DNA of 64,000 nucleotides from an uncultured Monoglobus sp. (GTDB lineage: Bacteria; Bacillota; Clostridia; Monoglobales; Monoglobaceae). Shown here piece after piece: positions 238-18,056 of this stretch (the stretch's first letter is position 1; each line of letters begins with the position of its first letter). A model generated the notes under the pieces. It was not told where the DNA came from. It saw nothing but the letters and a program-made list of their open reading frames with translations, and searched no databases. The position numbers were made by a program, and so were the translations under genes. The stretch is taken from NCBI GenBank assembly GCA_947624305.1, contig CANQKC010000004.1, positions 1-64,000 on the forward strand, read 5' to 3'.

Positions 238-3200
238 ATGAGAACCTTAAAGAAAACACTGGCATTGGTACTTGCCATCGCTATGGTCCTCACAACCTTC
301 GGCATGGTGACGGTTTCGGCCGCGAATTACGCGGACACTCCGGGCCACTGGGCCGAGGGCGTAATCGACCTTTGGTCGGGTTACGGCGTTGTGCAGGGCG
401 ACGGCGGCTACTTCAGACCCGACGACGCGATTTCCCGCGCCGAGGTCGCTCAGATAACGCAGAACGTTATCGGCTATGTTACCAAGGCCGAAAATTCATT
501 CAGCGACGTTGACCCCAACGCGTGGTACGCCGACGCTGTTCTGCGTCTGGTTGCCGCTGCGGTCCTCAAGGGCAACGGTGACGGCACAATGAGCCCCGAC
601 GCGTATATGACGCGTGAAGAGGCCATGACGATGATGAGCAGAGCCTACGGCCTGACACCCGTGAACACCAACGCGGGCATCACGCAGTATGCCGACTATC
701 AGAGCGTTTCCGAGTTTGCCAACGGCTACATCGGCGCTATGACGGCGGCGGGCTATGTTAACGGCTATGAGGACGGAACTATCAGACCTCAGGCGACGAT
801 CTCAAGAGCCGAGTTTGTCAAGATCCTTGACAACATGATCAAGATGTACATAACGGCTCCCGGCACCTACGGCCCCGCTTATGTTGGCGGCTTCGTAATG
901 GTTAAGGCTGGTGGCGTTACGCTGGACGGCATAGTTGCCGAAAAGGTCGTTATCTCGCCTATGGTTTCGGGCAACGTTACGACAAGCGGCTCGCAGATCA
1001 ACCAGGGCGTGCTGAACCTTTCGGGCACGGCCACGGTTAACGAGGCATCTTCAAATAACGTGGTAAGCGGAATGCTCGGCGGCTATTACGGCGGCAGCAG
1101 CGGCAGCAGCGGCGGCTCAAGTACGAGGAACTACACCGTAACATTCTATGTTGACGACGCGGTTTACGCGACGAAGACATATTCGAGCAACGCTTATCTC
1201 AGCACGAATATGCCTGTCGACCCCACAAAGGCATACGCCAAGTTTAACGGCTGGTACGCTTCAAAGACAGACGCGGCTGACGCTGCGAACCACCAGCCCA
1301 TAGTTCCCGCAAGCACAAGAGTTACGCAGAACACGAGCTATTATGCCGGCTTTGTAAGCACGGGCGAGGCTCCAACGGCTTCTCCGTCTCCGGACCCGAA
1401 CGCGACGGCGGCTCCCACAGCTGCTCCCGACGAGACGACGGCTCCTTCCGAGCCGACAACGGCTCCCGAGCAGCCCACACAGGCGCCCGCGCAGCCCACA
1501 CAGGCACCCGCGCAGCCCACGCAGGCTCCCTCAACGCTCTACACCGCTGCGCTTAAGGTAAACGGCGGCGAGGGCGAGCTGACAAGCGCCGCGGCGGCAG
1601 AGCCCACGCAGGCACCCGCGCAGCCCACAGCGGCGCCGGCAGAGCCCACACAGGCACCGGATAATCCTCCGGCAGTCGGCGGCGAGACCAAGGTATGGGA
1701 TTTCTCATCCGAGGCATGGGCTGAGTTTGTTGACCCCGGCAAAGAGGTTGCCAGCGAGCAGACGGTTGACGGAATTATTATCTGCGGTTCAGCGGGTAAG
1801 AATATCACCGTCGCCACAAACGAAAAGGTAAACGAAGGCAAGACGACATATCTGAACCTTGGCGGCAGCGGCAACTGGTACTTTAAGTATAAGGCCGAGA
1901 CAGACGGAAAGATTGCGTTCACGATACACTCGTCGGGCGAGACGACCGACAAGAACGGCAATCTGCGCAACGTATTGATCAAGGTAGGAAGCGCCGATGC
2001 GGTATCCGAGACATACTGCACGACCGAAGGCGGACTTTCAAAGGATTACACATACGACCTTAAGGCCGGTGAGACGATCCAGGTAGGCGGCAAGGGCAGC
2101 TCAAACGGCTTCTGGCTGACGGCTCTGAGCTTCACGTCAAACGGCGGCGGCTCGGTTGAGCCCGGTCCCTCGACGCCCACACAGGCTCCCGCAGAGCCCA
2201 CACAGGCTCCTTCGACAGACGCCACAGCGGCACCCGCGCCCGAGGGTTCGAGCACATACACTGTTGACAAAAACGCGCTCATAAGCGAGGGCACAAAGCT
2301 GACAGACGACGCCAATGTTACGGTTGTAAACAAGTTTGCCGGCGAGATTGGTGAGAACAAAAATCCCCAGACTCTGACAATAGGCGGCAAAGAATTCGAC
2401 AGCACAAGCTTCCTGAGAGTAAGAAGTGATAACACCAAGCCGAAGTCGGTAAGCGACCTGACATTCTTCGCCTCCACGGGTGCCCAGAATGCTGACGGCA
2501 CGCCTTCAAGCTTTAACTGCACGATCCTTGAGATAACTCCTCATGTTGACGGCGTATTCAAGATCTATTACAGACGTCAGCCCGAAAGCAAGACCACCGA
2601 CTTTACTCCCGACGGCGGCAAAGACACCAAGCTTGCCGATGATACGACCGGAACGGTTCCCTGCGCCTCGGAGGATATCGAATCGTTTAGCAACGAGAAC
2701 AAAGAATACGGCTACGGCACAAAGACATGGAACCTCAGCAAGGATAAGCTTTACGGCCTCTGGGCGGGCGGCACGACCGGCACGATCTACGGCTACGAGT
2801 TTATACCCGCGGCGTCCACTTCCGACGCAACGGCCGAGGCTGCGGATCTGACACCCGTTGAGGATACCGATGGTCTCTACAAGTATATACGCGATCAATA
2901 TATTGACGACAATCTGGAATTAAGCTTCAACAAACCCGACAGCGGCGAGATTACGTATAAATCAACGTTCGGCAACAAGTATATTACCGTATACAGAAAG
3001 GACGAGGGCACGGCTCCCAAGCTCGGAACCGCGAAGACCTATGACGGCGGCAGAATTATTCTGAGACAAGGCACAATGAAAGATCCCGGATGGGAGATTG
3101 ACCTCAATAACGTTATCGCGGTTTGCGCTCCCTACGACTGCAAGATCCAGGTAAGAGCCGGCCAGTCGGGCGGCAGCGGGGTGCTCGATATGAGCATTAA

Positions 3201-6200
3201 CGCTCAGACGGGACTTGGCGTCGACAACCCGACAAAGAAGGTACTTTCGTACAGCGCGGACAGAAACGACGACGTTATAGTGCCCGAGACATACAGCGCC
3301 AAGGAAGGCGACATTGTATACTTCTGGTTTGATGGTACAGCCGGAACAGGAACGGTTATTTCGTTCACGTTCTTAAAGGACGACGGCAGCTCAGAACCCG
3401 CAGAGCCCACAACGGCTCCGGCAGAGCCGACAGCGGCTCCGGAGCAGCCCACAACAGCGCCCACAGAGCCCACGCAGGCACCGGATAATCCTCCGGCGGT
3501 CGGCGGCGAGACGAAGGTATGGGATTTCTCATCCGAGGCATGGGCTGAGTTTACCGGCGAAGGCAAAGAGGTTGCCAGCGAGCAGACGGTTGACGGAATC
3601 ACTATCTGCGGCGCGGCAAACAAGAAGATAACCGTTGCCACAAACGAAAAGGTAAACGAAGGCAAGACAACATATCTGAATCTTGGCGGCAGCGGCAGCT
3701 GGTACTTCAAGTATACGGCCGAGACAGACGGAAAGATCGCGTTCACTATCCATTCTTCGGGAGCGGCTGTTGTAAACGACGGAGTAAAAGATCCCGATAA
3801 GAAGGATGATAATCCCAGAACGGTATTGATCAAGGTAGGTTCACAAGAGGCGACAAAAGAGGCATATACCACGGTAACACCCGAAGTGCTTAGCAAGGAC
3901 TTCTCGTATGACCTGAAGGCCGGCGAGACGATTCAGGTAGGCGGCAAGGGCAGCTCAAACGGATTCTGGCTGACAGCTCTAAGCTTCACGCCTGCGGGCG
4001 GCTCGGTTGATCCCGGTCCCTCGACGCCCACAGACGCACCCGCGACAGCGGAGCCCGGAACAAAGACATATCAGTTCGAGGCAGGCGCGACGGTTACTTA
4101 CACAGGCACACCCGCGGCTGCGGGCGCGACGGCCTCGATCAAAGTGACAGGCGCTGACGGCAAGGATATTCCCGTAAGCGGCAACTCGTTCACGATGCCC
4201 GCTCAGAACGTAAATGTTGAAGTAACCTACGAAGGCGGCGCGTCGAGCAAATATGAAGTTTCGATAGGTGACATCACCGGAGAGGGCGACGCGTGGATAG
4301 TTGTTCCCGACAGCACAGAGGAAGCTACTCCCGCACCCGCACCCGCGACTGCGGCTCCCACAGAAGCTCCGGCAGAGCCCACCGCGGCTCCCACCGAAGC
4401 TCCCACGGCGGCGCCTCCCGCGGGAACTCCCGGAACGCAGGAACCCACTGCCGAAAACAACTATCCCGAAGGCTCGATCGTTTGGGACTTCTGCAAGGAG
4501 CCCTTCGTTAACGCCGACGGCACGGTGAACACCACAATGTTCCCCGAGGGTGACATGGATGGCAGATACAACGTTGGCCCCGAGTCTATCGTTAACGTAA
4601 ACGGACTGACATATTACTCGCAGTCACCTATGGGCACGACTCCTACCAAGAACGGAAACCAGGGCAGCAATAAAACTTTCTCCGACGGCGCGAAGTTCAC
4701 CCGCATGATCAAGTCTCAGGGCAAGGGCAGCATAACCTTAAATGAGGAGACCGGCGAGTACGTTAAGGACAAGTGCTTCGAGTTCCAAGCTCCGTTTGAC
4801 GGAACCATAACACTGTACGCGAGAAGCGGCGGAAGCAATGCCGACGCCAATATAACTTTCGCGATCAACGGCAGTGCTGTTAGTACTCATACCGTTATAA
4901 AAACAAATGAAGAGGGAACACTGACAGACGGACTGCCAGTATTCACCCAGACGGGCGTGTTTGAAGGCGACACCGTTCAGATATACAGCGACAATAACAC
5001 AAGCTACTACGCGATAGTATTCTCGCCTGCCGCGGCCAACGCTTCGGCTCTCGCGGCGGATATGCCCTATCAGGCGTCCGCAGTTGCGGCTGCTGACGAG
5101 CCCGCGGATTCAGGCGAGTCAGGAAGTCTCCCCGCGGATAAGCTCTGGAAGCTTAATGACAAGGCGGTGCAGGACGCGCTGGCTGCTTACAAGACCGAAG
5201 ACACTGCTCCCGTTGAAAACGTTGACGGCGCGGTTGTAGGCCCCGGATACACATATGACAAGAGCAGAAGCGTTGATTATGAGCATGCGGACGGCACAAA
5301 GTATAAATTCACCGGATCGCTGAGAGGCGGCAGCGGCAGCACAGAGAAGCTCTTTGTTTCGATCATTCCCGAGCCCTGCGCCTGCACGGTCACGGTAGTG
5401 TTCGACGGTCACGGCTCAGCCGGCAGGACCCAGAACATCGCCTATGACGCTGACGGCGACGGCACACCCGAGGTTGTTTCCTCAAAGGCTTCCGAGACCG
5501 GCGCGACAGCGGTGACATACGATATGACAAAGGCTCAGGCCGAAAGCGGCAAGCCCGTTTACACCTACGGCGGCGGCTCAAACAAGAACCTGTACGCGAT
5601 ATTTATCGAGTACTATGAGGAGACGCCCGAAAAGTGGCTGTCCGGTTCGATCGCGAACATGACCGGCCGTGACTTTACGGACAAGAATATAGTGTTCACA
5701 AACGATGCCGACCCGAGCGAGACATACACCGTTCCCTTCGCGGACGACTATATGGTAAAGCTGCCCAAGGGCAAAACATTTACCGCGACAGTTGAGGGTG
5801 AGAGCGACGTTTGCACAACGATCGACGGTCAGCACATAGCGATCGAGCAGAACAGATATGATCAAACCATGGATCTGACGTTCGTTCTTATCGCGGACGC
5901 GGAGGTAAGCGGAAAGGTTTCGACGATCACGTCGCACGACCTGCTGACTCCCGTATATGATTACGACGCGGCGATCGGCGCCAAGCTGGCATTCACCAAG
6001 CAGGGCGCTGCCGAGCCTTACGCCACAGCCGAAGTAGCTGCGGACGGCACATACAAGGCAACGCTGATGTCAAACGAGACATACGACATCACGCTCACGA
6101 CGGCGGACGGTCAGTCATACACGCTGTCGCCTCTGTCCGGAAGCTATCAGTTCCTGGCGGGCGACCAGGCTCCGTTCAAGAACATCCTTCTGATGAAGGA

Positions 6201-7560
6201 CGGCCCCGCGAAGCTTGACTATAAAGACACTCTGACGGTCGGCGCCGACAAGGAATACAAGTCGATCAGCGAGGCTCTCGCCGCGGTAAGACTGATGAGC
6301 AGAGAGCCCGGTCAGGTCGTTACTATCGTTATCGACCCCGGCACCTATGAGGAGCAGCTCTATGTAAACATGGACGACATCGCTCTCAAGGCCGCGAACC
6401 CCGATGAAAGACCTTTGATCACCTGGTACTACGGCATAGGCTACGTTTACGACTCGGCCGCGCCTCAGACAGACGCGGGCGATCCCGAGACCGGCGAGGG
6501 CAAGTCCTATCAGGGCTGGTACAGCGCCGACTACGCGGCAGCCAAGACGAGTCAGTGGACGGTCAACAACTGGGGATCGACCATCAGAACTCTGAACAGA
6601 GGATTCTACATGGAGAACATCGACGCTCAGAGCAGCTTCAACCTGTACATCACCGAGAAGGAGCTCAGCGACCATGTAACTCCCGGCGGCGGCGACGCCA
6701 AGGTAGGCGTGCTCAGAGATGACCTCGACACCGCTGTAAACAACAGGACCTACAACGAGAGAGCGGCGGCGATCTTCGCCGGCGGAAGTGAGATCGAGCT
6801 TTATAACTGCTCGTTCGTATCCAGCCAGGACACGTTCGGAACAGGCGCGAAGTCAATGTACGTTAAGGACTGCCTGATCTCGGGCAACACCGACTATATC
6901 TGCGGCGGCGACAACTGCTACTTCGAGAACTGCGAGCTGAGATGGCAGGGCATGAGCGACACCGATAACGGCGGCTACATCACGGCCTGCAAGAACTCGG
7001 CCGAGACAGACCTGGGCTACTACTTCAAGAACTGCACGATCACCAAGAACCCCGCTTCGGGTATGCAGGCCGGAAAAGGCGGCAACTGGGGCAGACCTTG
7101 GGGCGGCAAGGGCAAGACCGTTACTATCTTCGACAACACAACGATAGGCGACGGCGTTAACAAGCCCACAGGCTGGACCTCGATGAGCAGCTCTCAACCT
7201 TCCGACGCTATATACTATGTAGTAAACGGCGTTTACAAGGCGTCCGATCCCGCGACGGACATCACGGCTTCGGCCGATAACCCCAACGGCACATATGACG
7301 CCAACAGCTACACGCTGCCCACACCCGAGCAGTACTTCGGAGACTGGGCTCCCGAGAACTACGGCAAGGCGTCGTCTGATGAGAACTTAGCCAAGTCTTA
7401 TATGGCGGCTCCCGGCGAGATCATCACGATCAAGACCAGTCCGAAGGCAAAGAACGTTCTTACGCTGCCCGGCACAACGGTTACACCCGTTGAGGGCAAG
7501 GACGGATATTACACCTTCGAGATGCCCGCGGCCGACACAAAGGTAAACGTGGAATTCTAA
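238..7560 (+). CDS. Giant SLH-anchored pectin methylesterase (CE8)
   Basis: Predicted exported, cell-surface carbohydrate esterase of 2440 residues. A signal peptide ends near residue 28 (VSA-A). Three SLH domains follow (about 29-205), which in this family bind secondary cell-wall polymer. Then come an InlB/Flg_new-type beta repeat (about 298-372), proline/threonine-rich linkers, and two near-identical modules starting KVWDFSSEAWAEF (about 485-635 and 1094-1251). Other beta-rich putative binding modules follow, then carboxypeptidase-regulatory-like repeats (about 1800-1980). The pectinesterase domain occupies about 1995-2330 near the C-terminus. The CE8 catalytic set is visible: Gln2197-Asp2198 in SSQDT, Asp2219 in NTDY (21 residues on, as in known CE8 enzymes) and Arg2286 in GRPW. 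The start is set by AAGGAGGG about 6 nt upstream. It would demethylate pectin at the surface. The binding modules are unassigned. Confidence 0.88.
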   Translation: MRTLKKTLALVLAIAMVLTTFGMVTVSAANYADTPGHWAEGVIDLWSGYGVVQGDGGYFRPDDAISRAEVAQITQNVIGYVTKAENSFSDVDPNAWYADAVLRLVAAAVLKGNGDGTMSPDAYMTREEAMTMMSRAYGLTPVNTNAGITQYADYQSVSEFANGYIGAMTAAGYVNGYEDGTIRPQATISRAEFVKILDNMIKMYITAPGTYGPAYVGGFVMVKAGGVTLDGIVAEKVVISPMVSGNVTTSGSQINQGVLNLSGTATVNEASSNNVVSGMLGGYYGGSSGSSGGSSTRNYTVTFYVDDAVYATKTYSSNAYLSTNMPVDPTKAYAKFNGWYASKTDAADAANHQPIVPASTRVTQNTSYYAGFVSTGEAPTASPSPDPNATAAPTAAPDETTAPSEPTTAPEQPTQAPAQPTQAPAQPTQAPSTLYTAALKVNGGEGELTSAAAAEPTQAPAQPTAAPAEPTQAPDNPPAVGGETKVWDFSSEAWAEFVDPGKEVASEQTVDGIIICGSAGKNITVATNEKVNEGKTTYLNLGGSGNWYFKYKAETDGKIAFTIHSSGETTDKNGNLRNVLIKVGSADAVSETYCTTEGGLSKDYTYDLKAGETIQVGGKGSSNGFWLTALSFTSNGGGSVEPGPSTPTQAPAEPTQAPSTDATAAPAPEGSSTYTVDKNALISEGTKLTDDANVTVVNKFAGEIGENKNPQTLTIGGKEFDSTSFLRVRSDNTKPKSVSDLTFFASTGAQNADGTPSSFNCTILEITPHVDGVFKIYYRRQPESKTTDFTPDGGKDTKLADDTTGTVPCASEDIESFSNENKEYGYGTKTWNLSKDKLYGLWAGGTTGTIYGYEFIPAASTSDATAEAADLTPVEDTDGLYKYIRDQYIDDNLELSFNKPDSGEITYKSTFGNKYITVYRKDEGTAPKLGTAKTYDGGRIILRQGTMKDPGWEIDLNNVIAVCAPYDCKIQVRAGQSGGSGVLDMSINAQTGLGVDNPTKKVLSYSADRNDDVIVPETYSAKEGDIVYFWFDGTAGTGTVISFTFLKDDGSSEPAEPTTAPAEPTAAPEQPTTAPTEPTQAPDNPPAVGGETKVWDFSSEAWAEFTGEGKEVASEQTVDGITICGAANKKITVATNEKVNEGKTTYLNLGGSGSWYFKYTAETDGKIAFTIHSSGAAVVNDGVKDPDKKDDNPRTVLIKVGSQEATKEAYTTVTPEVLSKDFSYDLKAGETIQVGGKGSSNGFWLTALSFTPAGGSVDPGPSTPTDAPATAEPGTKTYQFEAGATVTYTGTPAAAGATASIKVTGADGKDIPVSGNSFTMPAQNVNVEVTYEGGASSKYEVSIGDITGEGDAWIVVPDSTEEATPAPAPATAAPTEAPAEPTAAPTEAPTAAPPAGTPGTQEPTAENNYPEGSIVWDFCKEPFVNADGTVNTTMFPEGDMDGRYNVGPESIVNVNGLTYYSQSPMGTTPTKNGNQGSNKTFSDGAKFTRMIKSQGKGSITLNEETGEYVKDKCFEFQAPFDGTITLYARSGGSNADANITFAINGSAVSTHTVIKTNEEGTLTDGLPVFTQTGVFEGDTVQIYSDNNTSYYAIVFSPAAANASALAADMPYQASAVAAADEPADSGESGSLPADKLWKLNDKAVQDALAAYKTEDTAPVENVDGAVVGPGYTYDKSRSVDYEHADGTKYKFTGSLRGGSGSTEKLFVSIIPEPCACTVTVVFDGHGSAGRTQNIAYDADGDGTPEVVSSKASETGATAVTYDMTKAQAESGKPVYTYGGGSNKNLYAIFIEYYEETPEKWLSGSIANMTGRDFTDKNIVFTNDADPSETYTVPFADDYMVKLPKGKTFTATVEGESDVCTTIDGQHIAIEQNRYDQTMDLTFVLIADAEVSGKVSTITSHDLLTPVYDYDAAIGAKLAFTKQGAAEPYATAEVAADGTYKATLMSNETYDITLTTADGQSYTLSPLSGSYQFLAGDQAPFKNILLMKDGPAKLDYKDTLTVGADKEYKSISEALAAVRLMSREPGQVVTIVIDPGTYEEQLYVNMDDIALKAANPDERPLITWYYGIGYVYDSAAPQTDAGDPETGEGKSYQGWYSADYAAAKTSQWTVNNWGSTIRTLNRGFYMENIDAQSSFNLYITEKELSDHVTPGGGDAKVGVLRDDLDTAVNNRTYNERAAAIFAGGSEIELYNCSFVSSQDTFGTGAKSMYVKDCLISGNTDYICGGDNCYFENCELRWQGMSDTDNGGYITACKNSAETDLGYYFKNCTITKNPASGMQAGKGGNWGRPWGGKGKTVTIFDNTTIGDGVNKPTGWTSMSSSQPSDAIYYVVNGVYKASDPATDITASADNPNGTYDANSYTLPTPEQYFGDWAPENYGKASSDENLAKSYMAAPGEIITIKTSPKAKNVLTLPGTTVTPVEGKDGYYTFEMPAADTKVNVEF

Positions 7561-7758: not shown

Positions 7759-10700
7759 ATGAGAACCTTAAAGAGAACACTTTCAATTGTTCTGGCGATC
7801 GCCATGGTGCTCACAACCTTCGGCATGGTGACGGTTTCGGCCGCGAACTACGCGGACACACCGGGTCACTGGGCCGAGGCCGTGATCGACGAATGGACAG
7901 GTTATGGAGTTATCCAGGGCGACGGCGGCTATTTCAGACCCGATGACTCGATCACCCGCGCAGAGGTTGCGCAGGTAACGCAGAACGTTATCGGCTATGC
8001 CGCGACGACCGAGAACACATTTACAGACGTTGATCCCAACGCGTGGTACACCGACGCGATCCTGCGCCTCGCCGAGGCCGGAGCGCTCAAGGGCAACGGC
8101 GACGGAACAATGAGCCCCGACGCGTATATGACGCGTGAAGAGGCAATGACCATGCTGGGCAGAGCCTACGGCCTGACACCCGCCAACACCAACGCGGGCA
8201 TTACGCAGTATTCCGACTATCAGAGCATTTCCGAGTATGCTAACGGCTACATTGGCGCAATGACAGCGGCAGGCTATGTCAACGGCTACGAGGACGGAAC
8301 GATCAGACCTCAGGCGACGGTTTCAAGAGCTGAGTTTGTCAAGATCCTTGACAACATGATCGGCTTGTACATAGCGGCTCCCGGCACATACGGCCCGGCC
8401 TATGTCAAGGGCCTTGTTATGGTAAAGAGCGGCGGCGTTAACCTGAACGGAATCGTTGCGAGCGGCGTTGTTATTTCTCCGTCAGCGGGCGGCCAGCTTA
8501 CGCTCACCAACTCGCAGGTTGACAACAACATCTACAATATGTCAAGCACGATGACGGTCAACAGCGTCGGCAGCAACACCACGACCTCGGGCAGCAGCGG
8601 CTCCACCATCTATGGCGGACCCATGGGCTCGAGCAATTACAGGACCTACACCGTAACATTCTATGTTGACGGCAGAACTTATCACAGCGCTTCCGTAAGA
8701 TACAACTACTATCTTACGAACATCCCCACAGACCCCGTTAAAACGGGTTATACGTTCGCCGGCTGGTACACTTCGGCGAATTACGCGGCGCAGGCGGGCA
8801 CCACAGGCATTTTTGACTTCGGCACAACAAGAATTACCGGCAACACAAGCGTTTACGCCGGATTTATCTCCAATTCGGATGTAACGCCCGACCCGAACGC
8901 GACAGCGGCTCCCACAGCAACACCTTCGGTTTCGATCAAGGATCCCACACAGGAATACAACCCCGAGGCCCCCGCGGAGGTTAAGGCGGAGCTGGTTCCC
9001 GCGGACGGAAAAGACGTGACCGTAAGCGGCGTTGTTTGGGAAGGAACCAACGAGGCCGGTCAGTCCGTTACTCTCACAGAGGGCAAGGATTATGTAATTG
9101 AAGGCAATAACGTTGTATTTAATGAAGAATTCCTCAACAGTCTCTATGACGGAACTCATAAAGTTGTAATTGAGACCAGCGGCGGAGCCGTTCAGTTTGA
9201 CATCGTAGTAAACGGTTCATCAATACCCGTACCCACAGCGGCTCCCTCAACCGAGGCTCCTTCGACCGAGACACCCTCAACCGAGGCACCCGACGTAACA
9301 GAAGCGCCTTCAACCGAGGCACCCTCGACTGAGGTACCCTCAACCGAGGCTCCTTCGAGCGAGGCTCCCGACGTAACAGGAGCACCCTCGACTGAGGTGC
9401 CCTCAACCGAGGCTCCTTCGAGCGAGGCGCCCGACGTAACAGGAGCACCCTCGACTGAGGTGCCCTCAACCGAGGCTCCTTCGAGCGAGGCCCCCGACGT
9501 AACAGGAGCGCCCTCGACCGAGGCGCCCACACCCGACGTTCAGGACGTTTACCACAAGGCAACTCTTAAGGTAACAGGCGGCACAGGCTCGCTGACAGGC
9601 GAGGGCGTTAAGGAAGCGACAGCTCCCGCGGCTGAGGCTGCGGCGGATCTGCCCGCTGACGAGGCTTGGACAGTAGCGGACGCCGAGCTGGACGCTATGG
9701 TTCTGGCATCGGAAAAAGGAAAAGCTTTCGGACCCTATAAGGACCTGAGCGGCTACGGCGAATGGGCAAAAGGCGGCAGTAAGCTTACATATGAACACAC
9801 CAACGGAGTGACTTATAGCTTTGACCACGGCTGGCAGACCGGATCGGGCGGACAGACCAACAGATGCTTCTACTTTACACCGAAGCAGGCTTGTATCGTG
9901 ACGGTTGCTTACACCGCGCAGGCGGGCAGACCCATGTACATCTACCAGGGCGGCAATCTGCTGGCAAGCGGTGAGGACGGCGCCACGACAGACGGCAAAC
10001 CCGCGATAATTTCAGCCGATATCGAGGATCCCACAGCCGGCGACGTATATGTATACGGCGGCAGCTCCAACAAGCAGCTCTACGGCATATTCGCGGATTA
10101 TTATGATCCCACCGTGGTTGTTTATCAGACGCTGAGCGGCACGATCAACTACACCGGCTCGGAGACAGGATTAAAAGTAAGATTTACGGATACAAAAGAC
10201 CAGACCACATATGATGTTGACCTTAATGCGGGCGCTTACAGCGTTGATCTGCGTCAGAACAGAAACTATACGATAAGCATAGTTGACGCGGACGGCACAG
10301 TAAGCAGCAAGACGGCAGTAACGCTTGACTCGAACAGCGTTTCTATCGCCAAGAAGGCAAAGACTCAGGACATCAACGTGGTTGACATAGCGCCCACAGA
10401 AGTAAAGGGCGACGTTGTGGTTCACGAGATAACGAACAACGACGGCAAGTCGCTTGATCTGAGCAAGGTCGCTCTGAAGTTCACGGCCAAGGACGACGCC
10501 TCTATCACATACGACGTGGCGGCGGGCAGCATCGCGGACAACAAGTACACGGTAACAATGATGCCCAACCACGAGTACGAGGTAACAGCCACAGGCATTG
10601 ACGGCTACGCGCTGTCGCCCATGTCCGGCAGCTATCTGATGGCCGCGGGCGATATGGCTCCGTTTAAGAATATTCTTATCACAGAGACTCTCGGAGAGGT

Positions 10701-13700
10701 TGCGGTTCCCGCCGACAAGACCGTAAGGGTCGGCAAAGACAAGGAATACGCGACGATCAGCGACGCTCTGGCAGCCGTTAAGGCAATGAAGAGAGACTCG
10801 GGTGAGAGCGGTCGTATCACGATTGAGATCGACCCGGGCAATTACACCGAACAGGTTAGGGTAAATTCAGGCTATGTAACGCTCAAGGCGGCAGACGCGG
10901 CAAATCCGCCCGAGATCAACTGGTACTACGGCATAGGCTATATCTATTACAGCGCCGGTCCCGATCAGTATTACAGCGAGGACTGCGCGGTTGCCAAGAC
11001 AGCCAAGAAGCCCGTAACCAGATGGGGATGCGCGGTTCGCATCGAGCAGCCTTACGTTCTCATGGAGAACATCAAGGTCATCGACACGTTCAACTGCAGA
11101 GTCGTTCCCGAGGAGATCGCTGACGGCGTTGAGGCCGCAGGCCCCGGTATCTACGGCGACGTTTCGGGCAAGCCCGACAGAACAGTCGAGGGCTACGACG
11201 CGATGAAAAAGGACGCCACAGAGAGAGCGGCTGCTATCGCGATCGACGCCAATAACTTTGAGGCTTACAAGTGCGAGTTCGTATCATCTCAGGATACGTT
11301 CTATACCAACACCGCAAACTCATATATCAAGGACTGCTACATCGAGGGCGGCACGGACTATATTTACGGCGGAAAGCAGATCGTGTTTGACGGATGTACT
11401 CTGGCATGGCACGGCTACAGCGATCAGGCGAACGGCGGATATCTGACGGCCTGCTCCGATGACGGTGTATCTTTAGGTTATCTGTTCACAAACTGCACAG
11501 TTACCAACTCCAAGTACTTCCCGAACAATAAGTTCGCGGCAGGCGGCTGGGGCAGAAACTGGGGCGGAGCTTCCTGCCACGTTGTATACGAGAGCATGAA
11601 ACTTGACGGCGTTGACGTTCCCGGCCCGTGGGTAAAGATGGGCGGCGAGCTCAGCGAGTCCACGCTCTATATCCTCAAGGTAACGGATAAGAACGGCAAA
11701 GATGTTGACGTATCGGGAACAAACTTTAACCCCAACGGCACAGCGGAAGCCAATAACTACACGGTACACCCGGCATATGATTACTTCGGCACATGGACGC
11801 CGCCTCACTACGACGGTCCCGCAAAGCCGACGCCGACACCCAGACCGGAAGGCTTTGTTGATGTAAATCTTGATTTCACAAACACGGATCTTTATACCGG
11901 CACAGAGCAGAAATCGCCTCTGTCTGACGCGACAATAGCGGAACTCGCCGAGCAGGGAGTGACCCTTGACGCGGGAACAATGTATTGGAACGATCACGGC
12001 TGCAACGGCCTCGGCACAATAACGATCGACGCCAAAGGCCCCTACAAGGTAACGATAGGCGCCTGCAGCTTCGGCGCTGATTCCGTCCAGCTCTTAAACG
12101 GCGAAGAAGTTATTGATTCGGCGCCTCTCAAGAGCGCGGGCGACGGAGCTCAGGTTGTAATGTATTACGGCGGAACCGAAAAGACGCCTATAACCGTTAA
12201 ATTCAGCTCCGCGTCATATGTTCACTCGTTCGCCGTTCAGACCGTTGATCCTTCGGAGGTTCCCGATCCCTCGACAAAGGCGAAGATAACCTACGCTCTC
12301 GGCGAGTCCGAGGCTCAGGGCGAGCTGCCTCTCGAAACAACGGTAGACGTTGGAACAAAGGTCAATATCCCGATCTACGGCAAGCTCTACAAAGAAGGCT
12401 ACACGCTCACAGGCTGGACGCCCGACGGCGGCGCAACCGAGTATAAAGTCGGCGCCGAGTTCGAGGCGACAGGTAATATGGAACTTACGCCCGTATTCGT
12501 TCAGAACGCCGAAGGCGCTGTTCCCGTGGGTGATGTAGTGGTTAGCTTCGCGAAGCAGGATGGAGCTCCGCCTTTAGCTTGGGAAGGAGGCACCGATAAC
12601 GTATACGTTGTTCAGGGCAAGACCGCGGACGGTACTCCCATAGACGTGCCTATCACTGTTGTCACCAACCCCGGTAAGCTCAACAACGCCAACTGGAACG
12701 ATTGTGCCCAGTGCAACGAGGGAACGACATTCGGCTTCCCCACCGTTGACAATACTGTTGTCACAGTGAATAAGATTTATGACGGCACAAACGGAACATA
12801 CACGATAAACGGTGTTGACAAGGTCGGAAACGAGCAGAGCGAGACAATAACCGGCAAGACATCATCGACAATAGTCGTAAAGAACATAGGTGGTTACATT
12901 TCTTACTTTACGATCTCTTATCCCGCCGAAGCGCCCAAGCCTTCGGAAGAGCCCGGCGCGTTTACGGCCGAGTATGAGATCCTCGAGGGTTCCGAGGTAA
13001 CTATAAACGCCACGCCTGATACCGAGGGTCAGACTCCTGTTATCGAGATAACGGGCGAGGACGGTACGCCTATCAACTTGGCGGTTACGGACGGCAAGTT
13101 CACAATGCCGAATAACGATATAACCGTTAATGTTGAATTCAGCAGCGAGCCCGCGGCTTCGAGCGAGCCCGGACCGGCGGTGACGGATGAGCCCGCGGCA
13201 ACAGATGAGCCAGCGGCAACAGATGAGCCAGCGGCAACAGATGAGCCCGATACGCCCCCGGTTCCCGGCGAAATTGAATTGACATGGGAACAAGGTCAGG
13301 CAAAGTCGGATACCTCAGACGGCGAGCATTTTATCGTTGACAAGGAAGGCAAGAGCGGCGTTCATCAGGTTGGCAGAAACATTTACGCCGCGCTTCCCGA
13401 GGCAATAAGCGCCGGCAAGCTCACATTTGAGACTGATATATATCTCAGCCCAGACGAGCCCGGATTCAGAATTCAGGTTGAGAATGCAGCCGGCACAAAT
13501 TACCAGAACGACAATCCCGGCGTTATAGCCCAAAATATAGTGGCGACAGGCAGCAGCACTCCCGTAACATCTGTTACGGAAACCGGCTGGTACCACGCGA
13601 CGGTAGTTATTGACTACACAAGCGGTTCGCCCGTGATCACGGGTACGCTCACGGCTCCGTCCGGAGAAAAACTCATGGACAATGTTGAGGCGACGATAGA

Positions 13701-13803
13701 AAATGTTGCCGACACAGCCGTTAAGCAGATTCGCCTTATCAGCAGAGGAACAACCGGCGAAACGGATTCATATTTCGCAGATCCGGTTCTTAAAGCCGAA
13801 TGA
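7759..13803 (+). CDS. Giant SLH-anchored pectin methylesterase (CE8), paralogue
   Basis: 2014 residues and a paralogue of the preceding gene, with nearly the same signal peptide, three SLH domains (about 29-205) and InlB-type repeat (about 295-370). A repetitive S/T-E-A-P linker spans about 495-595. A putative binding module shared with the paralogue (about 630-780) precedes the CE8 domain, which here is central (about 985-1345). Catalytic residues are Asp1179 in SSQDT, Asp1200 in GTDY (again 21 apart) and Arg1266 in GRNW. After CE8 come a beta-sandwich-like module, a second InlB-type repeat, another module, a TDEPAA repeat linker (about 1810-1830) and a LamG-like C-terminal module (about 1835-2014). 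The same AAGGAGGG site precedes the ATG. Predicted role: surface pectin demethylation, with different binding modules from the first copy. Confidence 0.88.
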   Translation: MRTLKRTLSIVLAIAMVLTTFGMVTVSAANYADTPGHWAEAVIDEWTGYGVIQGDGGYFRPDDSITRAEVAQVTQNVIGYAATTENTFTDVDPNAWYTDAILRLAEAGALKGNGDGTMSPDAYMTREEAMTMLGRAYGLTPANTNAGITQYSDYQSISEYANGYIGAMTAAGYVNGYEDGTIRPQATVSRAEFVKILDNMIGLYIAAPGTYGPAYVKGLVMVKSGGVNLNGIVASGVVISPSAGGQLTLTNSQVDNNIYNMSSTMTVNSVGSNTTTSGSSGSTIYGGPMGSSNYRTYTVTFYVDGRTYHSASVRYNYYLTNIPTDPVKTGYTFAGWYTSANYAAQAGTTGIFDFGTTRITGNTSVYAGFISNSDVTPDPNATAAPTATPSVSIKDPTQEYNPEAPAEVKAELVPADGKDVTVSGVVWEGTNEAGQSVTLTEGKDYVIEGNNVVFNEEFLNSLYDGTHKVVIETSGGAVQFDIVVNGSSIPVPTAAPSTEAPSTETPSTEAPDVTEAPSTEAPSTEVPSTEAPSSEAPDVTGAPSTEVPSTEAPSSEAPDVTGAPSTEVPSTEAPSSEAPDVTGAPSTEAPTPDVQDVYHKATLKVTGGTGSLTGEGVKEATAPAAEAAADLPADEAWTVADAELDAMVLASEKGKAFGPYKDLSGYGEWAKGGSKLTYEHTNGVTYSFDHGWQTGSGGQTNRCFYFTPKQACIVTVAYTAQAGRPMYIYQGGNLLASGEDGATTDGKPAIISADIEDPTAGDVYVYGGSSNKQLYGIFADYYDPTVVVYQTLSGTINYTGSETGLKVRFTDTKDQTTYDVDLNAGAYSVDLRQNRNYTISIVDADGTVSSKTAVTLDSNSVSIAKKAKTQDINVVDIAPTEVKGDVVVHEITNNDGKSLDLSKVALKFTAKDDASITYDVAAGSIADNKYTVTMMPNHEYEVTATGIDGYALSPMSGSYLMAAGDMAPFKNILITETLGEVAVPADKTVRVGKDKEYATISDALAAVKAMKRDSGESGRITIEIDPGNYTEQVRVNSGYVTLKAADAANPPEINWYYGIGYIYYSAGPDQYYSEDCAVAKTAKKPVTRWGCAVRIEQPYVLMENIKVIDTFNCRVVPEEIADGVEAAGPGIYGDVSGKPDRTVEGYDAMKKDATERAAAIAIDANNFEAYKCEFVSSQDTFYTNTANSYIKDCYIEGGTDYIYGGKQIVFDGCTLAWHGYSDQANGGYLTACSDDGVSLGYLFTNCTVTNSKYFPNNKFAAGGWGRNWGGASCHVVYESMKLDGVDVPGPWVKMGGELSESTLYILKVTDKNGKDVDVSGTNFNPNGTAEANNYTVHPAYDYFGTWTPPHYDGPAKPTPTPRPEGFVDVNLDFTNTDLYTGTEQKSPLSDATIAELAEQGVTLDAGTMYWNDHGCNGLGTITIDAKGPYKVTIGACSFGADSVQLLNGEEVIDSAPLKSAGDGAQVVMYYGGTEKTPITVKFSSASYVHSFAVQTVDPSEVPDPSTKAKITYALGESEAQGELPLETTVDVGTKVNIPIYGKLYKEGYTLTGWTPDGGATEYKVGAEFEATGNMELTPVFVQNAEGAVPVGDVVVSFAKQDGAPPLAWEGGTDNVYVVQGKTADGTPIDVPITVVTNPGKLNNANWNDCAQCNEGTTFGFPTVDNTVVTVNKIYDGTNGTYTINGVDKVGNEQSETITGKTSSTIVVKNIGGYISYFTISYPAEAPKPSEEPGAFTAEYEILEGSEVTINATPDTEGQTPVIEITGEDGTPINLAVTDGKFTMPNNDITVNVEFSSEPAASSEPGPAVTDEPAATDEPAATDEPAATDEPDTPPVPGEIELTWEQGQAKSDTSDGEHFIVDKEGKSGVHQVGRNIYAALPEAISAGKLTFETDIYLSPDEPGFRIQVENAAGTNYQNDNPGVIAQNIVATGSSTPVTSVTETGWYHATVVIDYTSGSPVITGTLTAPSGEKLMDNVEATIENVADTAVKQIRLISRGTTGETDSYFADPVLKAE
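9301..9520 (+). repeat. 63-bp tandem repeats encoding an S/T-E-A-P linker
   Basis: The sequence gacgtaacagg recurs at 9370, 9433 and 9496, an exact 63-bp period encoding a 21-residue unit (P-S-T-E-V-P-S-T-E-A-P-S-S-E-A-P-D-V-T-G-A). A degenerate copy starts near 9292. It lies in frame in the paralogue's linker and probably changes length by slippage or recombination. Confidence 0.85.
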
Positions 13804-13904
13804 TTTGATATGCCTGCGGCAGCAGGCGCCGCTTGATCGCTCGCGAACATAGCGGCAACGCGGAAATGAGTAATTCCTTTTCCGCTGACTGATTTGCGGC
13901 TTAT

Positions 13905-13939
13905 ATCGCCCCTCGGGAAATCCCGAGGGGCGATTTTTT
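13905..13939 (+). terminator. Terminator of the second SLH gene
   Basis: A perfect 14-bp stem (ATCGCCCCTCGGGA, 13905-13918, with its complement at 13921-13934) is followed by a T-run. The 100 bases before it hold two weaker hairpins, including GCCTGC-ggca-GCAGGC at 13812-13827, and no gene. Confidence 0.9.
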
Positions 13940-13958
13940 GCGCCCAGCCAAAAATAGC

Positions 13959-13987
13959 TTGTATTTTCAAATAAGCTGTGGTATAAT
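13959..13987 (+). promoter_or_regulatory. Promoter of the signal-peptidase-like/polyamine operon
   Basis: TTGTAT (13959-13964) and a perfect TATAAT (13982-13987) are separated by 17 bp, 28 bp before the start codon. The three genes downstream are closely spaced on the same strand. Confidence 0.75.
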
Positions 13988-14014
13988 AGTGCAAACAAAT
14001 AAAGGAGTAAACAA

Positions 14015-14569
14015 ATGCAAAAGGAAAAACCGCGCGGCGGGAGGATGAGGCCTGCCGCCATGATCGCCGTGATCGCGCTGTGCGCGCTGATCGCCGCCGT
14101 GATTATCACGGCGCTGATCAATAAATATATGTTCTCGATGATAAAAGTCACGGGCGCGGGCATGGAGCCCGCGATATATTCGGGTGAAAGATGGCTCATT
14201 GACAAACGCTTTGACGATATAAGCCGTGGCGACATTGTCGTATTTAGCTCGGACGACGGCGGAGCATCGATCTCGCGCGTCGCGGCGGTTGGCGGCGACA
14301 GCGTTTATATCGACATGCAGAGCGGCAGACTCTATATAAACGGCGGGCTTGTCGACGAGCCTTACGCGAAAATATCGGCGGGCACGGGCGGCAAATTTAT
14401 AACCGAGCTCCAAAGCGGAAGAAATTACAGCAAGGAGTCGCCGTACGTTGTGGAGGACGGATATATTTTCGTCCTCGGCGACAACCGCGGCAACAGCCGC
14501 GACAGCCGCGAGTTCGGCCCGATACCCGAGAGCGCGGTTTTCGGAATAGCCGCGCGGAAACTGAAATAA
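14015..14569 (+). CDS. Signal peptidase I homologue lacking both catalytic residues
   Basis: 184-residue S26-family protein with one N-terminal membrane segment (about 12-32) and an outside domain. The family boxes are recognisable: [33 protein letters not shown], and [16 protein letters not shown] near the C-terminus. Signal peptidase I uses a Ser in G-D-S-M-x-P-T and a Lys in the V-K-R-I/V-x-G-x-P-G-D box. Here those positions are Gly49 (GGC) and Ser87 (TCG), so neither half of the dyad is present and protease activity is not expected. The Ser-His alternative of SipW-type enzymes is also excluded by the missing Ser. The ORF is otherwise intact, has a good AAAGGAG site and starts an operon with speD. 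Inference: a pseudoenzyme with a binding or scaffold role, or a decaying paralogue. Confidence 0.8.
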
Positions 14570-14588
14570 AAAGGCGGGGGATGAAAAA

Positions 14589-15377
14589 ATGGCAAACAAC
14601 AAGATCAAGCTTTACGCGTTCAACAATCTGACAAAGACATTAAGCTTTAATATCTATGACGTGTGCTACGCCAAGAGCGCGCGCGAGCAGAAGGACTATA
14701 TCGCTTATATCGACGAGCAGTATAACTCTGAGCGTCTGACCAATATTCTGCTCAAAGTAACCGAGATCATCGGCGCGAACGTGCTGAGCATTTCAAAGCA
14801 GGACTACGACCCGCAGGGCGCCAGTGTCAACCTTATGATAAGCGACGACGCGCTGAAGCCCGCGCAGCCCGCTTACAGCACCACGGTCGCGGGAGACGAG
14901 ATCATGGCCCACCTCGACAAGAGCCATGTCACGGTTCACACCTATCCCGAATATCACCCCGACAAGGCGATCTCGACCTTCCGCGTTGACATCTGTGTCT
15001 CCACCTGCGGCAAAATATCGCCGCTTAAAGCGCTTGACTATCTTATCGGCAGCTTCGATTCCGATATAATCACAGCCGATTACCGCGTCCGCGGCTTCAC
15101 CCGCGACCTCGACGGCAAAAAGCTGTTTATCGACCATGACATAACTTCCATTCAGGATTACATAGACAAAAAGACTCTTGAGCGTTACGACGCGATCGAC
15201 GTCAACGTGTACCAGTCGAACATTTTCCACACCAAGCTGCTCATCAAGGAGATCGATTTGCAGAACTATTTGTTCAAGACCGACGTATATGAGCTCGACC
15301 CGAGGACGCGGCTCAATATCAGCAGCAGCCTGCGCCGCGAAATGATCGAGATATTCAGCGGACAAAATATTTATTGA
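14589..15377 (+). CDS. speD: S-adenosylmethionine decarboxylase proenzyme
   Basis: 262 residues, very similar in length and sequence to the E. coli-type SpeD. It makes decarboxylated SAM, the aminopropyl donor for spermidine. The family motif [13 protein letters not shown] is present and its Ser is residue 112, the serine that becomes the pyruvoyl group after self-cleavage in E. coli SpeD. The N-terminus ([19 protein letters not shown]) and the segment [16 protein letters not shown] are typical. It begins 19 nt after the signal-peptidase-like gene and is followed 14 nt later by a decarboxylase gene, so the three are probably one transcript. No speE is seen here. Confidence 0.95.
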
Positions 15378-15391
15378 CGGAGGGAGCGCCG

Positions 15392-16834
15392 TTGGAACAG
15401 GACAGAGCCCCGATCTACGAGGCCTTGCAGAATTTTAAATCAATGAGAATAGTGCCCTTTGACGTGCCCGGCCACAAACGAGGCAAGGGCAGCCCCGAGC
15501 TGACCGCTTTTTTGGGCAAACAGTGCATGGAGGCCGACGTGAACTCGATGAAGCCGCTTGACAATCTGTGCCATCCCGTTTCGGTGATACGCGAGGCGGA
15601 GGAGCTCGCGGCTGACGCGTTCGGCGCGCGCCACGCGTTTTTTATGGTCAACGGGACCACAAGCGCGGTGCAGGCGATGATATTTTCCGCCGTTAAAGAG
15701 GGCGAGAAGATCATTCTGCCCCGAAACGTCCACCGCAGCGCGATAAACGCGCTCGTGCTGAGCGGCGCGGAGCCGGTCTATGTGAACCCGGGCGTCAATA
15801 AGCGGCTCGGGATCCCGCTCGGAATGAGCGCCGACGACGTCAAGGCGGCGATAGCCGAAAACCCGGACGCCAAGGCGGTGTTCGTCAACAATCCCACATA
15901 TTACGGCATTTGCAGCGACCTCAGAAAGATAGTGGAAACGGCTCACAAGGCGGGAATGCTCGTCCTTGTCGACGAGGCGCACGGCACGCATTTTTATTTC
16001 GGCGACGGGTTCCCGATAAGCGCGATGGCCGCGGGAGCCGACATGTCCGCTGTCAGCATGCACAAAAACGGAGGCTCTCTCACCCAGAGCTCTTTTTTGC
16101 TTATCAACAACTACGTCAGCGAGGGCTACACCCGCCAGATAATCAACTTGACCCAGACCACCAGCGGCTCGTATCTGCTCATGTCGTCTCTTGACCTGTC
16201 GCGCAAGAACCTCGCCTTAAACGGCAGAAAGATCTACCGCCGCGTCAGCGAGCTCGCCGAGTACGCCCGCGGCGAGGTCAACCGCATTGGCGGCTATTAC
16301 GCCTTCGGCAAAGACCTGATCGACGGAAAGGCGGTCTATGATTTCGATTTGGCCAAGCTTTCGATCCACACCCGCGATATAGGCCTCGCCGGGATCGAGG
16401 TCTATGACATTCTGCGCGACGATTATGACATTCAGATCGAGTTCGGCGACATAGGAAATATTCTGGCGATAATCTCGGTGGGCGACACATATCTGATGAT
16501 CGAGCGGCTCATATCCTCGCTCAGCCAGATCGAGCATATCCACAGGCGCCCCACAGCGGGAATGTTTGATCACGAGTATATTTCGCCCGAGGTCGCCGCC
16601 GTGCCGAAACGCGCGTTCTTCGCGCCCAAGCGGGCGGTGCCGATCGAAAAGAGCGCGGGCATGGTGTGCGCCGAGTTCGTAATGTGCTATCCGCCCGGGA
16701 TCCCGATCCTCGCGCCCGGCGAGAGGATAACCCCCGAGATCCTTGAGTATATAGCCTACGCCAAGGAAAAGGGCTGCTTTATGACCGGAACCGAGGACAT
16801 AGAGCTTAACTACATTAATATAGCGGCAATATAA
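15392..16834 (+). CDS. speA: Orn/Lys/Arg-family PLP decarboxylase (probable arginine decarboxylase)
   Basis: 480 residues, fold-type I PLP enzyme of the Orn/Lys/Arg decarboxylase group. The N-terminus has the F-D-V-P-G-H-K-R-G-K-G motif, VDEAHGTH supplies the cofactor-binding Asp, and SMHKNGGSLTQSS holds the Schiff-base Lys225. The C-terminal lobe ends with CYPPGIPILAPGE, typical of the family. In Firmicutes this short form usually makes agmatine from arginine, but lysine or ornithine cannot be excluded. Start choice: a TTG at 15374 overlaps the speD stop, but the in-frame TTG at 15392 has GGAGGG 7 nt upstream and is preferred. Next to speD it points to spermidine synthesis through agmatine. 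Confidence 0.88.
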   Translation: MEQDRAPIYEALQNFKSMRIVPFDVPGHKRGKGSPELTAFLGKQCMEADVNSMKPLDNLCHPVSVIREAEELAADAFGARHAFFMVNGTTSAVQAMIFSAVKEGEKIILPRNVHRSAINALVLSGAEPVYVNPGVNKRLGIPLGMSADDVKAAIAENPDAKAVFVNNPTYYGICSDLRKIVETAHKAGMLVLVDEAHGTHFYFGDGFPISAMAAGADMSAVSMHKNGGSLTQSSFLLINNYVSEGYTRQIINLTQTTSGSYLLMSSLDLSRKNLALNGRKIYRRVSELAEYARGEVNRIGGYYAFGKDLIDGKAVYDFDLAKLSIHTRDIGLAGIEVYDILRDDYDIQIEFGDIGNILAIISVGDTYLMIERLISSLSQIEHIHRRPTAGMFDHEYISPEVAAVPKRAFFAPKRAVPIEKSAGMVCAEFVMCYPPGIPILAPGERITPEILEYIAYAKEKGCFMTGTEDIELNYINIAAI

Positions 16835-16835
16835 G

Positions 16836-16859
16836 GCAGCCCCGAGCGGGCTGTTTTTT
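16836..16859 (+). terminator. Terminator of the polyamine operon
   Basis: CAGCCC (16837-16842), a five-base loop and GGGCTG (16848-16853) are followed by six T, immediately after the decarboxylase stop codon. Confidence 0.85.
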
Positions 16860-16894
16860 ATGATTTTATGTAATAAAATTGTAATATAAATTGC

Positions 16895-16923
16895 TTGACA
16901 TGGTTTTGTCTGTAAATTATAAT
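16895..16923 (+). promoter_or_regulatory. Consensus promoter of recA
   Basis: A perfect TTGACA (16895-16900), 17-bp spacer and perfect TATAAT (16918-16923). I see no Gram-positive LexA box (CGAAC-N4-GTTCG type) around it, so SOS control is not evident from the sequence. Confidence 0.9.
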
Positions 16924-16991
16924 TATATTCAGGGGAATAGTATCCTTTTAAAATCACGCATAAAAATTTCGCAGAAACGGAGAAAAATATA

Positions 16992-18056
16992 ATGAATGAG
17001 GAAAAAAGAAAAGCACTTGATCTGGCAATGGGCCAGATAGAAAAACAGTTCGGAAGCGGCGCGGTAATGCGCCTCGGCGAGAAGCCCGACGCCAATGTTG
17101 AGGCGATCCCGACGGGCGCGCTGTCGCTCGACATAGCGCTCGGAATAGGCGGCCTGCCGAGAGGCAGGATCATTGAGATATACGGCCCCGAGTCCTCGGG
17201 TAAGACCACCGTCGCGCTGCATGTTGTGGCGCAGGTCCAGAAGATGGGCGGCGAGGCCGCGTTTATCGACGCCGAGCACGCGCTCGACCCGATATACGCC
17301 GAGGCGCTCGGCGTTCACACCGACGATCTTATCGTCTCTCAGCCCGACACGGGCGAGCAGGCGCTTGAGATTACCGAGCAGCTTGTGCGCAGCGGCGCGG
17401 TTGACGTTATCGTGATCGACTCGGTCGCGGCGCTGGTTCCCAGAGCCGAGATAGAGGGCCTTATGGGCGACTCGCATGTGGGACTCCAGGCGAGGCTGAT
17501 GTCACAGGCTTTAAGAAAGCTGGCCGGAATAATCTCAAAGTCCAACACTACCGCGATATTTATCAACCAGCTCCGCGAGAAGGTCGGCGTTATGTTCGGA
17601 AATCCCGAGACGACGACCGGCGGACGCGCGCTCAAGTTCTATGCCTCGGTGCGGCTTGACGTGCGCAGGATCGAGACATTAAAGGGCGACGACGGCGTTA
17701 TGGGCAACCGCACAAGAGTCAAGGTAGTCAAGAACAAGGTCGCGCCGCCGTTCAAGGAGGCCGAGTTTGACATAATCTACGGCGAAGGCATATCGAAAAT
17801 GGGCAATATTATCGACGTCGCTGTCGATTTTGACATAATCAAAAAGAGCGGTTCGTGGTTCAGCTATGAGGGCGAAAGGCTCGGTCAGGGCCGCGAAAAG
17901 GTCAAGGGAATTTTAGAGCAAAATCCCGAGCTGGCCGAGGAGATCGAGAATAAGATACGCGAGAAGGCGGGATTGCCCAAGCTCGGCGAGGAAGGCCCGT
18001 CAATGTTTGACGACGCTCCGGTCGAGGGCCTGGAAAAGCCGAAAAAGAAGAAATAG
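16992..18056 (+). CDS. recA: Recombinase RecA
   Basis: 354 residues, full length for RecA. It forms filaments on single-stranded DNA, catalyses strand exchange and triggers LexA cleavage. The Walker A motif GPESSGKT is at residues 65-72, [10 protein letters not shown] follows, [12 protein letters not shown] is the Walker B strand, and the L2 region [21 protein letters not shown] is present. The acidic/basic C-terminal tail ends in KPKKKK. The start is supported by an ACGGAGA site. recX follows 31 nt after the stop codon. Confidence 0.98.

Follow-up and report, generated by a model that had tools for sequence, protein, structure and literature searches.

An intact gene in a 64,000-nucleotide stretch of DNA from an uncultured Monoglobus sp. 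(GenBank assembly GCA_947624305.1, contig CANQKC010000004.1, positions 1 to 64,000; hereafter the window) codes for a homologue of type I signal peptidases (SPases) in which, as judged from sequence comparison, both catalytic residues have been lost; it belongs to a monophyletic clade under strong constraint, and an intact paralogue is encoded elsewhere in the genome. Based on the analogy with the SPase-like protein SipA of Streptococcus pyogenes, we propose that this pseudo-S26 protein most likely serves the cell envelope as a binding or assembly factor anchored in the membrane. The fuller account, in which a dead SPase I paralogue was kept in such a role and came to lie next to speD through the loss of an exopolysaccharide cluster, appears to us reasonably probable.

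A signal peptidase homologue without its catalytic dyad

The reading frame at 14015..14569 (all window coordinates are on the forward strand) is open over 184 codons. Its product matches Pfam Peptidase_S26 (PF10502; E=1.2e-32, 113.6 bits against a cut-off of 22.9) and the signal peptidase I model TIGR02227 (E=4.5e-31, 107.9 bits, cut-off 47) which, together with the SPase fold of its structural model (Z 16-18), places it by homology in the Peptidase S26/SPase-I superfamily. A hydrophobic N-terminal segment, residues 13-39 (14051..14131), is helical in the AlphaFold2 model by DSSP and is taken to be the membrane helix. The general base of SPases is a lysine, or a histidine in the ER-type enzymes. 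In line with the earlier note, which had described an intact S26 homologue devoid of the catalytic serine and lysine, the alignment places Gly49 (GGC, 14159..14161) in the serine column of box B and Ser87 (TCG, 14273..14275) in the general-base column of box D, leaving neither nucleophile nor Lys or His base. The box at residues 154-165 (14474..14509) is intact in the alignments; box E is intact in the window protein and mostly kept across the clade.

We then compared genomes, most of them draft or metagenome-assembled and labelled G000, G001, G005 and so on, recovering orthologues in 11 of 12 Monoglobus genomes and in one genome of a sister genus of the same family (G017); none was found in the Monoglobus genome G007, which is 74% complete. 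Outside Monoglobaceae no orthologue was found in a sample of 148 genomes of the class or, among the matches listed, in a scan of public contigs with box-E patterns; clade members score at least 269 bits and canonical Monoglobaceae SPases at most 206, and sequences from elsewhere in the 148-genome sample reach at most 129. The 12 pseudo-S26 sequences form one clade (support 100/99) apart from 20 canonical Monoglobaceae SPases; inside this clade, G008, G001 and G017 branch together, away from the other nine. All relatives examined outside the clade that cover both columns have Ser and Lys. The expectation that Gly49 and Ser87 would be conserved held for the latter, which is invariant in 12/12 orthologues, an identity that argues against a chance replacement of the lysine; at position 49, ten sequences have Gly, and those of G008 and G001 have Ser. 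As these two retain the serine while all 12 have Ser87, the lysine was probably lost first and the serine later, perhaps twice, the simplest history inferred being a single Lys-to-Ser change followed by two Ser-to-Gly changes. The series from the Ser/Lys paralogue through Ser/Ser to Gly/Ser suggests that the general base can go before the nucleophile with the protein still under selection. The serine codons were also considered as a proof by convergence of selection on Ser87, an idea we rejected because the codon is TCN in every clade member and common descent explains this.

The window genome carries its second S26 gene, with Ser and Lys in place, on another contig, and an intact Ser/Lys SPase I was recovered in every genome of the pseudo-S26 clade. 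In Monoglobus and G017 the membrane helix of the canonical SPase I (e.g. L044:3484-4830, G000:C15) is preceded by about 250 low-complexity residues in which Arg, Lys, Ser and Gln abound. This N-terminal extension is missing from other Monoglobaceae and co-occurs with pseudo-S26 except in the incomplete G007. The pseudo-S26 protein might accordingly be a regulatory or decoy partner of active SPase I, binding either the enzyme or its substrates, and the long SPase ORFs of all pseudo-S26 carriers (430-496 aa, versus 175-290 aa in other Monoglobaceae) would fit such a role. However, the two traits can be placed on roughly the same branch, which makes their correlation non-independent, and G007 has the extension with no pseudo-S26 found; we consider this alternative unlikely.

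Polyamine genes and an exopolysaccharide cluster

Downstream of the pseudo-S26 gene the tight succession of polyamine genes reported earlier is readily recognized: speD, coding for an E. coli-type S-adenosylmethionine decarboxylase of 262 aa (14589..15377; TIGR03331, 1.4e-124, 414 bits), begins after 19 nt and is followed by an Orn/Lys/Arg decarboxylase-family gene (15374..16834; PF01276, 2e-70), the start of which may be the TTG at 15392. Neighbor genes were called by a longest-ORF rule, and the Pfam scan covered part of them. Scanning detected intrinsic-terminator-like hairpins on both sides of the three-gene unit, one after the upstream pectinesterase-like gene (13905..13934; the same hairpin is seen in G010) and one after the decarboxylase gene (16833..16857); no Rfam element reaches the gathering threshold in 13700-17100. 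Of the consensus promoter previously ascribed to the gene, the perfect TATAAT -10 element with its upstream TG (13982-13987) stands, but the -35 element, TTGTAT (13959-13964), matches at 3/6 positions. The resulting promoter-like site, TTGTAT-17-TATAAT (13959..13987), is conserved in G010, absent upstream of the G006 orthologue and not listed by the promoter scan. Five more distant species have a perfect TTGACA-17-TATAAT upstream of S26. As such sites precede S26 in both sub-clades, the transcript probably begins with S26 in each of them. Another perfect TTGACA-17-TATAAT lies at 16895-16923, just past the decarboxylase gene and before recA.

Directly upstream of pseudo-S26 the window codes for two adjacent giant secreted proteins (238-7560, 2440 aa; 7759-13803, 2014 aa), both with SLH-like N-termini, proline/threonine-rich repeats and pectinesterase-like regions. 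Similar regions lie ahead of pseudo-S26 in G006, G010, G008 and G001.

The S26-speD-decarboxylase unit is common to eight members of the genus; wherever the gap from S26 to speD was measured, it spans 19-29 nt. The proposed conservation of the speD linkage thus holds for 8/11 of the orthologue-bearing genus genomes and fails in G005, G008 and G001; G017 likewise has pseudo-S26 without an adjacent speD. In both G005 and G008 an exopolysaccharide cluster of 15-20 kb intervenes, in the order S26, sugar transferase (PF02397), flippase-like gene, glycosyltransferases, Wzy-type ligase and GGDEF protein, with speD and the decarboxylase gene following on the same strand as S26, 14.8 kb (G005) and 20.5 kb (G008) further on. 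In G005 the S26 stop codon is 12 nt from the gene for the PF02397 priming sugar transferase. The large GGDEF protein of the cluster (L178:7981-10515 in G005, and a similar one, L179:13677-16319, in G008) has its GGDEF domain behind a membrane N-terminus, which suggests an involvement of c-di-GMP. G008 and G001 have their polyamine genes in a separate run that lacks S26 and comprises speD, the decarboxylase gene, and spermidine synthase, agmatinase-type and saccharopine-dehydrogenase-type genes; in G001 this run and S26 are on different contigs.

Most simply, the arrangement of these genes would indicate that the tight unit resulted from loss of the exopolysaccharide cluster, which was the probable ancestral neighborhood of pseudo-S26. 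In a tree of SpeD, the decarboxylase and the canonical SPase, G005 falls outside the eight speD-linked species (87/86), so that losing the cluster once is enough to account for the adjacency; the tree of S26 alone instead joins G005 to the window clade (97/84), a topology that would call for two losses. Alternatively, but less simply, the cluster could have been inserted twice at one site, independently in G005 and in G008. The priming transferase cannot be the obligate partner of pseudo-S26, since five speD-linked species without a match to it keep the gene. We also considered and rejected a general association between S26 and sugar transferase genes: when the 80 listed public-contig loci were searched by tblastn, the transferase was seen only beside the Monoglobus G005 gene, making the link a local one.

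In contrast to a historical origin of the linkage, pseudo-S26 might be a functional member of a polyamine operon, sensing or binding a factor through which spermidine synthesis is coupled to the membrane, and hence co-expressed with speD. The short gap in eight species, S26 standing first in each, and the terminator-like hairpins bracketing the unit in the window are compatible with this, and the block persists while its outer flanks differ between the two sub-clades of the eight species, as a functional link predicts. Nevertheless, four genomes (G005, G008, G001 and G017) keep the gene away from speD, two of them (G008 and G001) having a polyamine run of their own, and, whereas the polyamine enzymes are cytosolic, homology points to an extracytoplasmic S26 domain. 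We therefore regard this alternative as quite improbable, and membership of the polyamine operon, to which the earlier note had assigned the gene, is not supported as a clue to function in view of the intervening cluster and the separate runs. History more probably than function accounts for the polyamine link, although the three-gene block of the eight species leaves room for a functional tie. More generally, the case cautions that tight operon-like linkage can arise by the loss of intervening genes.

Predicted fold, cleft and selection

An AlphaFold2 model built from a 78-row alignment, which includes canonical SPases and so favors the canonical fold, has a mean pLDDT of 88.9 and comprises the helix at residues 13-39 and an S26 domain. 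Its top match by VIA-align is S. pyogenes SipA (4n31; Z 18.4, rmsd 1.8 over 131 residues), tied with E. coli SPase (Z 17.7) and followed by S. aureus SpsB (Z 16.9) and then by LexA-type domains at Z of about 9 or less. A model from the 12 orthologues alone (pLDDT 75) again has SipA and SPases as its top matches. The S1 floor (Val45, Met50, Ile54, Ile86) remains hydrophobic. Three clade invariants, Glu58, Trp60 and Phe167, replace what in the canonical set are mainly Asp, Leu and Ile/Leu, and the C-terminus is altered in the clade. Trp60 (14192..14194), found in 12/12 clade members and 0/34 sequences outside, is 11 residues past the nucleophile position, like LepB Ile101 and SpsB Val47, as seen by alignment to SpsB. 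LepB Ile101 is among the residues of the S3 subsite (PMC2259416), and its replacement by Trp60 makes it likely that the S3 pocket has changed. Hence the fold appears to persist as previously suggested, with a cleft that is predicted to be remodelled rather than simply kept.

Could the protein still act as a protease via other residues, or be active in the serine-retaining G008 and G001 with another general base? The kept serine of these two and the mostly kept box E would be consistent with this. However, no Lys or His replaces the general base in any member, the 34 invariant columns of the clade alignment contain neither residue, and the serine is absent from 10/12 sequences including the window copy, making residual proteolysis very unlikely.

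Among close pairs (dS 0.11-0.33) the dN/dS of pseudo-S26 is 0.093-0.170, as compared to 0.019-0.053 for the active paralogue and 0.005-0.047 for speD. The gene is under constraint, yet it is evolving several times faster than the active paralogue. Although this higher rate, also evident in the identities between G000 and G011 (68% for pseudo-S26, 84% for the paralogue and 94% for speD), is what a slowly disappearing relic might display, frames open in 12/12 genomes over a deep divergence, the invariant columns and the low pairwise dN/dS led us to reject decay, which the earlier note had named as grounds for refutation, as scarcely credible. The clade tree, dN/dS and the structural model together bear out the notion of a repurposed pseudoenzyme with its fold kept.

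Relationship to known inactive signal peptidase-like proteins

Taken together, these observations are best accommodated by an SPase I paralogue that would have lost catalysis and been maintained by selection in Monoglobus and in a sister genus. Held in the membrane by a single helix that leaves the S26 domain on the outer side, such a protein presumably could not cleave; instead its remodelled cleft, with the S1 floor kept and a Trp at S3, might bind a peptide or the juxtamembrane segment of a protein, so that the protein would serve the cell envelope or export as an adaptor or assembly factor, as proposed for SipA. The probable ancestral exopolysaccharide neighborhood would point to the envelope and not to polyamines; loss of the intervening cluster would have left S26 beside the speD-decarboxylase pair, with which it is probably co-transcribed. 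More tentatively, the clade might represent a new pseudo-SPase class whose members hold a partner in the assembly of exopolysaccharide or surface proteins, or tune the extended SPase I, with intermediates (Ser present, Lys lost) recording the order of dismantling. Annotation pipelines will label the gene as signal peptidase I, a name that very probably misstates its activity. One clade member is probably present in the cultured species M. pectinilyticus, which would allow what a dead signal peptidase does in a non-pathogen to be studied.

Relative to canonical type I SPases (SpsB, LepB and the Monoglobus paralogue G000:C15), the window protein shares the S26 boxes, fold, membrane anchor and matches to the Pfam and TIGR models, but both Ser and Lys are replaced, the S3 residue is now Trp and the C-terminal RFWP... 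segment of the Monoglobus paralogue is missing. SipA (LepA) of S. pyogenes is an established inactive SPase-like assembly factor that is required for pilus polymerization and for which binding of a surface component has been proposed; encoded in a pilus locus, it has Asp48/Gly85 in place of the dyad and retains SPase I-like S1 and S3 pockets (PMC4049620). It is the closest solved structure to our model (PDB 4n31/4k8w), and the two proteins have in common the SPase-I fold, a single membrane anchor and loss of the dyad at both positions. They differ in the replacing residues, Gly/Ser in the window protein, in its Trp at the S3 position, in overall sequence (about 29% identity in the structural alignment) and in gene neighbors: those of the Monoglobus gene that were annotated are exopolysaccharide, polyamine and glycan-degrading genes and include neither a pilin nor a sortase gene. 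SpsA of S. aureus, a distant organism, is an inactive SPase-I homologue without both catalytic residues (PMC12445088) and, compared by description rather than by sequence, is likewise a dyad-less homologue beside an active paralogue; its exact residue changes were not found in the literature searched. Inactive SPase-like proteins are thus already known as a kind through SipA and SpsA. With an SPase-I fold in which both dyad residues are replaced, kept by selection (dN/dS) beside the intact paralogue of the clade genomes, the Monoglobus clade joins them as a new, independent lineage.
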